DNA of 64,000 bases from positions 496,001-560,000 of the forward strand of contig NZ_JABMLK010000002.1 in assembly GCF_013394855.1 (NCBI RefSeq), written 5' to 3'. This document shows positions 10,054 through 60,775 of the stretch, one piece after another. The notes under the pieces are model-generated. The model was not told the DNA's origin. It did not search any database and saw only the letters and a list, made by a program, of their open reading frames with translations. The translations under genes were made by a program, and so were the position numbers. Numbering within the stretch: the first letter of the stretch is position 1; every line of letters starts with the position of its first letter. Source of the stretch: Limnobaculum xujianqingii. GTDB taxonomy: Bacteria; Pseudomonadota; Gammaproteobacteria; Enterobacterales; Enterobacteriaceae.

Positions 10054-10090
10054 TGGTGGAGCTGGCGGGAGTTGAACCCGCGTCCGAAAT
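10054..10090. other. Probable ICE attachment site at the ssrA 3' end
   Basis: The tRNA-like 3' terminus of ssrA is a classical target for P4-type integrases, and such an integrase gene lies directly beside it. The core should be duplicated at the far end of the element, left of this window, so its exact limits cannot be set here. Confidence 0.6.
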
Positions 10091-10418
10091 TTCTACACCG
10101 TCGGTACTACATGCTTAGTCTGGTCTTTACATTCGCCTGACAGCTGCGGACAGACACGCCACTACCAGACTAGCTTGATTAATTTTAATGCTTCAACCCC
10201 AAGCAAGGCATCCACACGATCTCTTTTGGTTTTGACCTCTCTTGATCCCCGTCCTAAGAGCGGAGGCTAGGGAGAGAGGGCTCTGAGCAGGTTATTAAGC
10301 TGCTAGTGCGTAGTTTTCGTCGTTTGCGACTATTTTTTTGCGGTTTATTAACGAGGCCTACCGCACCTCGGCATGCACCTTGGGTTTCGCAAATCCCGTC
10401 GAATCCAGAATCAGCCCC
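10054..10418 (-). ncRNA. ssrA: tmRNA (ssrA)
   Basis: On the minus strand the 5' end reads GGGGCTGATTCTGGATTCGA and the 3' end carries the tRNA-like TTTCGGACGCGGGTTCAACT arm closing at CCA (10056-10054). The 365-nt length matches enterobacterial tmRNA. The resume frame at 10327-10292 encodes ANDENYALAA followed by two stops, the same tag as E. coli. tmRNA with SmpB rescues stalled ribosomes and tags the truncated proteins for proteolysis. smpB, usually adjacent, lies 14 kb away at 24600. The 3' end is the ICE insertion point and has been regenerated intact. Confidence 0.97.
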
Positions 10419-33610: not shown

Positions 33611-33895
33611 TGTAAGTTTCGCCGCTTTAAGTTCTGTGTTTATCTCGGCAGTGGAGTTTGCGTCGAGCAAAGGGGCGTTGGGGCGAACGCCCCTCTGCAC
33701 TCCCCGCGCCAACGCAGCCGACTGTTGACCGCCGCGTTGCGGCGGCAACCTCAGACAATAAAAAAGCCAACGCACCGACGCAGAGCCGCTCCCGACGTCG
33801 CTGCGCCTCGACCAACATCCATGTTGGTCGTGCTACTTTTTTATTGTCTGAGGCAACATTCGGATGCTTTAACCTGAAGGGCCAAGGGCTAAGGA
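33611..33895 (+). repeat. Structured dispersed repeat, family B, copy B1
   Basis: A 285-bp GC-rich element runs from TGTAAGTTTCGCCGCTTTA to GAAGGGCCAAGGGCTAAGG. It has nested palindromes: an outer 18-bp stem (33749-33766 with 33836-33853, CCTCAGACAATAAAAAAG and its complement), an inner GCAG/CTGC stem, a 10-bp palindrome CGACCAACAT/ATGTTGGTCG (33809-33830) and a CCGCCGC/GCGGCGG hairpin (33730-33746). Copies B2 (44307-44600, inverted) and B3 (60495-60775) are homologous. It sits between convergent grcA and srmB, outside both terminators. Open frames across it are not conserved as proteins. Confidence 0.88.
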
Positions 33896-42877: not shown

Positions 42878-42966
42878 ATCTCGCCATAACATAGTAGTGC
42901 TTTAGCTGGATAACCGTTAAGCTAGGCCGTTATTTTTTCTCGTTAGGAACAATTTGTTGGTAATGC

Positions 42967-43647
42967 ATGAACCCCATCATCATTGAGAGGCTACAGCGAA
43001 AGCTGGGTTATACGTTTCAACAGCAATCGCTTTTACAGCAAGCTCTGACACATCGAAGTGCCAGCAGTAAACATAATGAACGTCTGGAGTTTTTGGGCGA
43101 TTCTATCCTGAGTTTTGTTATTGCTGATGCACTATATCAGCGCTTTCCTCGTGTTGATGAAGGCGACATGAGCCGTATGCGTGCGACATTGGTTCGAGGC
43201 AATACGCTGGCTGAAATGGGACGAGAGTTCGATTTAGGCGAATGCTTGCGTCTGGGGCCGGGCGAACTGAAAAGCGGTGGTTTTCGCCGTGAATCTATTT
43301 TAGCTGATACGGTAGAAGCGTTAATCGGTGCAGTTTATCTTGATAGCGATATTCATCGGGTTCAGCAATTAATTCTGGCCTGGTATCAAACCCGCTTAGA
43401 TGAGATCAGCCCGGGTGATAAACAAAAAGATCCTAAAACACGTCTGCAAGAGTTCTTGCAGGGGCGTCATTTACCGCTACCAAGCTATTTAGTGACGCAA
43501 GTGAAGGGCGAAGCCCACGATCAGGAATTTACCATTCACTGCCAGGTGAGCGGTATTGATGATGCAATTATCGGCATTGGTTCCAGTCGTCGTAAGGCAG
43601 AGCAGGCTGCGGCAGAGCAGGCGCTTAAACATTTAGGCTTAGAATAG
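42967..43647 (+). CDS. rnc: Ribonuclease III
   Basis: The 226-residue enzyme equals E. coli Rnc in length. The RNase III signature [20 protein letters not shown] is followed by a C-terminal double-stranded RNA-binding domain ending [19 protein letters not shown]. It processes rRNA and mRNA. In E. coli era overlaps its end; here era is 2.3 kb away behind an unknown gene, repeat B2 and an IS630. The ribosome site is weak. Confidence 0.97.
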
Positions 43648-44306: not shown

Positions 44307-44600
44307 GAGCCCTTAACCTTAAGTCTTTTGTCCATTAAGTTAAGCATCCGAATGTTGCCTCAGCTAATAAAAAAGTAGCACGACCAACATGGATGTTGGT
44401 CGAGGCGCAGCGACGTAGGGAGCGGCTCTGCGCCGGTGCGTAAGCTTTTTTATTGGCTGAGGTTGCCGCCGCAGAGCGGCGGTCAACAGTCGGCTGCGCG
44501 GGCGTGGGGAGTGCAGAGGGGCATTCGCCTCAATGCCTCTCTGCTCGACGCTTACACAAATGCTAAGATAGTCGCTGTATCTAAAGCGGCGAAATGTTCA
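44307..44600 (-). repeat. Structured dispersed repeat, family B, copy B2
   Basis: This is the reverse-oriented homologue of B1 and B3. The outer stem is CCTCAGCTAATAAAAAAG (44358-44375) with CTTTTTTATTGGCTGAGG (44445-44462), so bases that differ from B1 change on both arms and one pair becomes G.T. It retains the CGACCAACAT palindrome, GCGCAG/CTGCGC and the CCGCCGC/GCGGCGG hairpin. The end nearest era lies 27 bp from the IS630 insertion. Confidence 0.88.
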
Positions 44601-44628: not shown

Positions 44629-45779
44629 AATAACTGCGCCTAATAGTAGATCACCGAATGGAACTCAATCCGGTTTGAGCGATCTGATCAATCGCCAAAA
44701 AGAACATATCGCCAACCGGACTGAGTTATGCCGATCATAGCACCGATACCCAGAAATGAACGACGTCAGATGGAAAAAATTGTCCATAAAACAACAGACA
44801 AAAACCATTCCAGACGTCTCATGGCCATGCTGATGTTACATCGTGGTGAATCACTCAGTTATGTCGCTAAAAACCTGTGTGCAGCACGTTCCTCCGTCGG
44901 TCGCTGGATTCACTGGTTCACACTATTTGGCATCGAAGGCCTGAAAAGTCTTCCGCCCGGACGCCCAAAAAAGTGGCCTGTTGAGGCGATGATGCGCATG
45001 CTCAATTTACTTGTTGAGCGCTCTGCACAGGACTTCGGATATCTGCGGTCACGGTGGAGTACTGAGATGCTAACGATTGAAATTAATAAACTATTTAATT
45101 CAACTTTGCATCCAGGAACGATCCGTCGCTGGCTACCTGAAGGTGGGATTGTCTGGCGCAGGGCAGCTCCGACATTACATATTCGCGATCCCCTCAAAGA
45201 TGAAAAACTGGCAGCGATTAATGAAGCATTAGAAAAAAACTGCGCTGACCATCCCGTCTTTTACGAGGATGAGGTGGATATCGATTTGAATCCCAAAATA
45301 GGCGCTGACTGGCAGAAAAAAGGACAGCAAAAACGAATCCCTACGCCGGGAAAAAATGAAAAGCATTACCTTGCCGGAGTACTTCATGCGGGAACGGGCA
45401 GAGTGGACTACGTCAGCGGGACAAGTAAGAACTCAGGTCTATTTATCAATATGTTACGAAAGTTGAAAAGTACATATCGCAGTGCAAAAACAATTACGCT
45501 AATCGTTGATAATTACATCATTCACAAGAGCAAAAAAACGTTGAAATGGTTGGAGGATAATCCGAAATTTACTGTTATTTATCAGCCAATTTACTCTCCG
45601 TGGGTAAACAAAATAGAACTCTTATGGTTGGCCTTGCACGAGACCATCACGCGCAATCATCACTGCAGAACAATGTGGCAATTATTGAATAATGTCAGAC
45701 AATTTATGAAAGCCGCTTCACCTTTCCCGGGCAACAAACATGGGCTAACGAAAGTGGAGCGGTATTAGGCGCAGTTATT
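44629..45779 (+). mobile_element. IS630 copy 2
   Basis: The 1151-bp element lies between TA dinucleotides at 44627-44628 and 45780-45781, again within CTAG, with the same perfect terminal inverted repeats as copy 1. It is inserted between repeat B2 and era. Both copies point the same way, 37.2 kb apart. Confidence 0.95.
44728..45768 (+). CDS. IS630 family transposase (copy 2)
   Basis: The 346-residue DDE transposase is identical in sequence to that of copy 1 (helix-turn-helix LCAARSSVGRWIHWF; acidic residues in VFYEDEVDID, TLIVDNYIIH and NKIELLWLALHE). It appears intact and potentially active. It is transcribed toward era, so read-through could contribute to era expression. Confidence 0.95.
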   Translation: MPIIAPIPRNERRQMEKIVHKTTDKNHSRRLMAMLMLHRGESLSYVAKNLCAARSSVGRWIHWFTLFGIEGLKSLPPGRPKKWPVEAMMRMLNLLVERSAQDFGYLRSRWSTEMLTIEINKLFNSTLHPGTIRRWLPEGGIVWRRAAPTLHIRDPLKDEKLAAINEALEKNCADHPVFYEDEVDIDLNPKIGADWQKKGQQKRIPTPGKNEKHYLAGVLHAGTGRVDYVSGTSKNSGLFINMLRKLKSTYRSAKTITLIVDNYIIHKSKKTLKWLEDNPKFTVIYQPIYSPWVNKIELLWLALHETITRNHHCRTMWQLLNNVRQFMKAASPFPGNKHGLTKVERY

Positions 45780-60494: not shown

Positions 60495-60775
60495 TGTAAG
60501 TTTCGGCCATAAATAGTGTGGTGAATTTCTGGGCTTTCGTGCCGGGCCGAGCAGGGGCATTATGGCGAATGCCCCTGCACCCCGCGCCTTTCGCACAGGA
60601 ATCCAGGTCGCTTAGGCGACTGCCTTCCTCCTTCGCTCGGCCTTAACGCACCGGCACAGAGCCGCTCCCGGCGTCGCTGTGCCTCGACCAACATCCATGT
60701 TGGTCGTGCTGGCCTCTCTCAGTCGTCAGCTGAATTCAAGTGCTCATTTAGAAGGGCAAAGGACAGGGCTAAAAG
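60495..60775 (+). repeat. Structured dispersed repeat, family B, copy B3
   Basis: This copy, in the same orientation as B1, retains TGTAAGTTTCGGCC at its start, the palindrome CGACCAACAT/ATGTTGGTCG (60685-60706), the AGAGCCGCTCCCGGCGTCGCT core and the GAAGGGCAAAGGACAGGGC end. The stem around the core is GCACAG/CTGTGC (60654-60659 with 60677-60682) where B2 has GCGCAG/CTGCGC, a compensated change. The middle part differs from B1 and B2. It lies between convergent queE and queD. Confidence 0.82.

Follow-up and report, generated by a model that had tools for sequence, protein, structure and literature searches.

The window, by which we mean the whole stretch of 64,000 nucleotides analysed here (positions 496,001 to 560,000 of contig NZ_JABMLK010000002.1), belongs to the 4.76 Mb genome of Limnobaculum xujianqingii and contains three copies of one repeat, B1, B2 and B3 (Table 1). 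The first-pass annotation had placed these copies, and its positions hold: set in sense orientation, the three align with one another over their full length. The stem arms that it quoted are also correct, with GACAAT/ATTGTC in the outer stem of B1, GCTAAT/ATTGGC (which contains one G.T) in that of B2, and an inner stem that reads GCGCAG/CTGCGC in B2 and GCACAG/CTGTGC in B3. Elsewhere in the window, Rfam matches rncO and tmRNA. The open reading frame adjoining B2 is absent among the matches listed to three congeners at this site and, judging from this comparison, may be specific to its own species.

Table 1. Position of the three copies, their parts and other features in the window
Feature	Position	Strand	Basis
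B1 full element, class A	33611..33895	sense = minus	sequence, blastn, full-length alignment
B1 core, two GGA hairpins; loop 1 GGA at 33820-33818	33762..33844	-	model R1 match + sequence
B1 hairpin of 3' module	33667..33698	-	sequence
B2 full element, class A	44307..44600	sense = plus	sequence, blastn, full-length alignment
RF01731 TwoAYGGAY match within B2, 46.6 bits (gathering 43)	44340..44482	+	Rfam
B2 core	44367..44449	+	model R1 match
B2 hairpin 1, hexaloop ATGGAT, GGA at 44391-44393	44382..44401	+	sequence + core alignment
B2 hairpin 2, loop AGGGA, GGA at 44419-44421	44404..44434	+	sequence + core alignment
B2 hairpin of 3' module	44513..44544	+	sequence
B3 full element, class B	60495..60775	sense = minus	sequence, site comparison, full-length alignment
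B3 core; loop 1 GGA at 60696-60694	60638..60720	-	model R1 match + sequence
B3 hairpin of 3' module	60551..60578	-	sequence
Open reading frame adjoining B2	44728..45768		
rncO	42887..43021		Rfam
tmRNA	10054..10418		Rfam

Copy number and spread

That the repeat is dispersed was borne out by a genome-wide blastn search with B1, which lists 40 places in its own genome. With a covariance model of the core (R1) and a threshold of 75 bits or more for what we call a strong copy, we found 107 copies in four Limnobaculum genomes, 29 in the genome holding the window and 28, 20 and 30 in the others, in addition to weaker matches, some of them copies whose hairpin 2 contains an insert. These four were the ones matched among 60 related genomes searched, the own genome included, and the other 56 gave no match. 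Across the GTDB family, where no more than 11 candidates were scored in any one genome, R1 matched 73 of 392 genomes and 30 of 154 genera, Limnobaculum counted among them, and we inspected 26 loci from 12 other genera. A second model, R2, matched 19 of 369 genomes of the class Gammaproteobacteria, again including the own genome. We inspected 15 of the 18 R2 loci outside the family, one being viewed off centre; five of them (L294, L295, L298, L299 and L301) carry two hairpins with GGA loops, and the others are no more than candidates.

Two of three queries taken from relatives in other genera had no match among plasmids, and the third gave a partial match in Pantoea (77.9% identity over 21% of the query). 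One IMG/VR contig fitted the pattern, but no such architecture was seen on reading its sequence, and a viral carrier was rejected. At most 4 of the 107 copies keep any one frame open through some 310 nucleotides, in agreement with the earlier view that no protein is conserved; an encoded protein was rejected as the role of the repeat because few copies keep any frame open.

A two-hairpin core with GGA loops

The core of 83 nucleotides has a simple architecture, in which a short stem (GCAC/GTGC) encloses two hairpins. When 45 copies were aligned without gaps over 83 columns, unconstrained RNAalifold predicted 25 pairs, and double changes occur in 16 of these. For the named structure of 23 pairs, 93.9% of the cells of this alignment are paired, against 81.7% in shuffled alignments and 25 to 47% when the structure is slid, and there are 119 cells with double changes against 34 in the shuffles. 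A wider alignment, A2, combines 26 loci from 12 other genera with 20 Limnobaculum loci (50 rows, 46 of them distinct, from 13 genera); in it, 94.7% of the cells pair and 265 cells show double changes, compared with 85 in shuffles. Covariation was assessed with a home-made script rather than R-scape, namely a phylogeny-aware G-test that applied APC and drew its null alignments from shuffled substitutions. On A2, 12 of 3160 column pairs were significant and all 12 lie within the structure, the other 11 of its 23 pairs being not significant. Since A2 had been fitted to the model, the test was repeated on 94 distinct Limnobaculum cores without gaps, which gave eight significant pairs, seven in the structure and the eighth (47-60) adjoining a structure pair.

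The energy of folding is also consistent with a genuine structure. The fold z-score is -7.9 for B2 (0 of 200 shuffles as good) and -2.6 for B3 (2 of 200), B1 having been folded without shuffles. The sense strand is the one with the more stable fold in 86 of 101 copies, and on it G.T exceeds A.C by 20 to 8 when pair 50-56 is left aside (p 0.036) and by 61 to 9 when it is counted. Six of the 107 copies, in which the core is not 83 nucleotides long, were dropped from these fold counts as well as from the loop, ortholog and genus covariation counts.

The loops are more constant than the stems. On the sense strand, GGA lies in the loop of hairpin 1 in 95 of 101 copies and in that of hairpin 2 in 99, although the stems of hairpin 1 alone take 35 forms; each loop is reversed in a single copy of the 101. 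The 46 distinct rows of A2, from 13 genera, show hardly any variation in the GGA columns, whereas most stem columns vary. Loop 1 is a hexaloop, A-N-GGA-N in nearly all copies, loop 2 is NNGGA with five bases, and the two triplets are spaced 28 nucleotides apart, start to start. Minimum-energy folding of the 101 copies leaves the GGA position of loop 1 inside a hairpin loop in 96 and that of loop 2 in 69, and there are five copies in which the pairing is kept while the GGA of loop 1 is lost or shifted. Insert variants of hairpin 2 bring a new hairpin, GCCTC-ATGGAT-GAGGC; inserts in hairpin 2 that add further hairpins are found at L007, L029, L051, L052, L055, L078 and L245.

The first-pass annotation had seen in the compensatory changes between copies a sign that the structure itself is selected, and had proposed a covariance test. 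The fold is real and kept, and the significant pairs lie in the structure almost without exception, but change between copies turned out to be weaker evidence than supposed, as it does not represent many independent compensations. Selection is better evidenced by the strand-specific loops, since both carry GGA on one strand and are kept across genera. Taken together, we regard it as highly probable that the repeat is a structured element under selection on one strand.

Change at shared sites and genomic placement

Comparison of flanks, with inverted pairs merged by hand, placed the 107 copies in 42 site groups. Among the 29 copies of the own genome, 22 stand at a site whose ortholog is occupied in one or more of the three congeners, five fall in ambiguous groups, and for two no such site was found; the B1 site is occupied in all four Limnobaculum genomes, with an insert variant in two. 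With at least 22 of 29 sites occupied in other species, recent transposition is unlikely, and the hairpin-based mobility raised in the first-pass annotation found little to back it. One may still think of a non-autonomous mobile element of the MITE or REP kind, whose hairpins a transposase or recombinase would recognise in DNA form, given the dispersed copies with shared ends, the tandem 5'-truncated copies, a preference for convergent gene pairs (see below), two Y1 transposase genes, and some shared sites, the B2 site included, at which the element is of class A or class B depending on the species. The two Y1 genes found, however, have no strong copy within about 10 kb. Moreover, GTAG is inconstant before hairpin 1, and a strand-specific loop triplet would be unexpected in a palindrome read as DNA, so that we consider a mobile element very unlikely.

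Copies truncated at the 5' end but complete at the 3' end stand in tandem behind a full copy at L033, L035, L037 and L039 and at G002:C1:3019249-3019963. A further repeat, class C, of about 233 bp per unit, is arranged in tandem and shares the 3' hairpin module (L007:586-1152, L043:1965-2909); all four genomes have it at several places, in opposite orientation and upstream of class A copies. At the sense 5' end of some class A copies (L002, L004, L005, L006, L035 and L037), a 7-bp unit such as AAGGGCA is repeated in runs, and other copies have different degenerate pyrimidine-rich tails.

At orthologous sites, hairpin 1 changes in blocks. Over 79 orthologous pairs, from which three ambiguous site groups (16 copies) were left out, its cells show 144 double changes that keep the pairing and only 2 single changes that do so, against 24 single and 3 double changes that break it, and 21 of 36 deviant alleles are present at another locus in the same genome. 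At five sites, the B3 site among them, the elements stand in opposite orientation in different species; the clearest case has 96% identity over 279 bp, three others have 80 to 88%, and the fifth pair did not align. B3 is inverted relative to all three congeners, with one flank only as support in one comparison in genome G002. The replacement of whole stem blocks between orthologs looks like gene conversion or template switching, and passages of PMC8794818 describe template switching as a source of such patterns, loop inversion included. Thus, the changes noticed in the first-pass annotation are real, but, because blocks are exchanged between orthologs, they are not many independent compensations. 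The repeat offers a natural case of block-wise compensatory change and a caution against counting covariation in repeats as independent events.

These patterns, together with the single reversed loops and the sites with opposite orientations, could be read as a mere by-product of DNA processes, in which template switching in inverted repeats and gene conversion would keep the arms complementary with no function for the cell. A process free of selection should, however, often reverse the loops, and each is reversed in just one copy; it would also leave unexplained a GGA kept across 13 genera in which the stems are all different. We judge this explanation unlikely.

In terms of simple ORF calls, 59 of the 107 copies lie between convergent genes, 22 are tandem and sense, 16 tandem and antisense, and 10 divergent, whereas among 190 control gaps from these stretches 23 are convergent (Fisher p 6e-15). 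Copies that share a site do not count as independent cases; by site group, before merging, the convergent fraction is 28 of 47, and in the own genome it is 17 of 29. This preference might suggest a local mRNA element like YPAL or REP, serving as a stabiliser of 3' ends or, for part of class A, as a two-way terminator between convergent genes. The outer stem of B1 and B2, formed by an A-run and a T-run, and the very stable fold would suit such a role, and REPs are mostly downstream of genes according to PMC3733652. Nevertheless, a run of at least six T follows the core in just 15 of the 107 copies, which led us to reject a terminator role for all copies, and a terminator-like hairpin already stands between the upstream gene and the element in 26 of 68 usable copies; this count covers copies whose upstream gene is on the same strand, less 15 for which the gap could not be used. 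Given also that neither a stabiliser nor a terminator needs GGA loops, a purely local mRNA element seems quite unlikely.

Regarding transcription, sense copies are not in excess at tandem sites (22 versus 16, p 0.42), and two of the five sites with both orientations sit between tandem genes. Co-transcription with the upstream gene as a rule was set aside, weakened by the 16 tandem antisense and 10 divergent copies and by the terminator-like hairpins. Read-through could transcribe many copies, although hardly all of them.

A possible docking site for CsrA and its known relatives

Our best guess for the partner of the strand-specific loops is CsrA, because the loops follow its known rules, and we propose, in a tentative way that falls somewhat short of probable, that the repeat, as RNA, would offer a CsrA dimer a place to dock. 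The 83-nucleotide core would be the working part, presenting two GGA-loop hairpins on one strand; we infer that a transcribed copy would bind one dimer, one loop per subunit, and that dozens of copies could titrate CsrA or position it on neighbouring transcripts. The sequence of the stems would be free to vary, with copies swapping hairpins or inverting through recombination or template switching, as long as selection maintained the pairing and the loops.

Several features are in line with this proposal. The core has GGA in hairpin loops, the ANGGAN context, and two sites at a distance within 10 to 63 nucleotides, the range that, according to passages of PMC7652899, one CsrA dimer can bridge. 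The same passages describe an ANGGAN hexaloop bound by RsmE and a SELEX consensus, RUACARGGAUGU; loop 1 in nearly all copies has the form of the former and comes close to the latter, and the insert variants bring a new hairpin with an ATGGAT loop. The fold and its covariation, the conservation of the loops, the excess of G.T, the more stable sense strand and the five loci outside the family all point in the same direction. Other features argue against it. In most SELEX hairpins no more than four pairs are contiguous, and high stability may hinder CsrA (PMC7652899), whereas hairpin 1 has about seven pairs. Loop 2 has five bases instead of being a hexaloop and is in a minimum-energy loop less often than loop 1, and five copies retain pairing without a proper GGA in loop 1. 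The terminator-like hairpins, the lack of sense bias at tandem sites and the sites between tandem genes with both orientations also count against it. In none of the open papers searched did we see CsrA linked to dispersed repeats of enterobacteria; PMC4679880 considered CsrA for a different intergenic repeat and judged it unlikely. A CsrA role of the family could be tested by simple binding assays.

Among known systems, the CsrA-binding small RNAs of the CsrB/RsmZ type likewise have GGA in hairpin loops and several sites (PMC7652899), while the repeat has two sites per copy, spread over many loci. With REP or GTAG palindromes, described in PMC3733652 as palindromic, dispersed and mostly downstream of genes, it shares these properties and alternative complementary residues in the stems. 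It is, however, much larger, and GTAG precedes hairpin 1 in only part of the copies, the others having CCAG, GCAG or ATAG; no RAYT gene flanked by strong copies was seen among the two Y1_Tnp genes found.

A second comparison is with YPAL, or RU-2, an intergenic dispersed repeat of 168 bp in Yersinia (PMC2759123), whose strand as printed there folds with AAGGAT and ATGGAT loops. Its sequence had no DNA match in the four Limnobaculum genomes, and 37 of 384 genomes elsewhere match it. Model R2 matches four of eight YPAL loci weakly (E 5.5e-4, 0.018, 0.44 and 0.61). The resemblance is one of loop architecture, and shared descent would be conjectural. Rfam covers YPAL with RF02770 (Ysr224), for which seven of the eight loci score over the cut-off on the opposite strand; at these loci (L282-L289), the modelled Ysr224 strand is opposite to the one with the GGA loops.

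The closest relative is TwoAYGGAY (RF01731), a motif that originates from Weinberg et al. (PMC2864571) and that has been proposed to bind CsrA (PMC4333381). It has the same three-stem core, and both of its AYGGAY loops align with the GGA loops of B2, which is in favour of a CsrA role for the repeat. Identity to a catalogued repeat, which the first-pass annotation had named as counting against its reading, was thus found in part: B2, the only copy reported in the window, exceeds the gathering score, whereas B1 and B3 do not. A search of the whole genome with RF01731 listed 10 matches, five over the cut-off, with B3 at 42.1 bits and B1 and B2 not among them, and none of 14 control genomes matched. 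Where the motif has two AYGGAY loops, loop 1 here reads ANGGAN and loop 2 keeps GGA within the five bases NNGGA. Differences include this loop 2, the long extra 3' module, the dozens of copies and the exchange of blocks. The repeat is therefore not wholly new, and is best described as a multi-copy structured element that is a variant of the TwoAYGGAY kind; since the core model matches 30 of 154 genera and Rfam flags one of the 20 such loci from other genera, most of its relatives seem to be uncatalogued. A broader reading, which we hold to be unlikely as a whole, is that of a distributed CsrA sink across Enterobacterales and patchily in other Gammaproteobacteria, in which each genome would have dozens of twin-GGA RNA elements, scattered in position, that would stay at fixed sites while species diverge, swap hairpins in blocks and become inverted, TwoAYGGAY and, by its loop architecture, YPAL being parts of the same network. 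Through this repeat, the orphan motif TwoAYGGAY of Rfam and, as regards architecture, the classic YPAL repeat of Yersinia are tied to a widespread family of dispersed elements.
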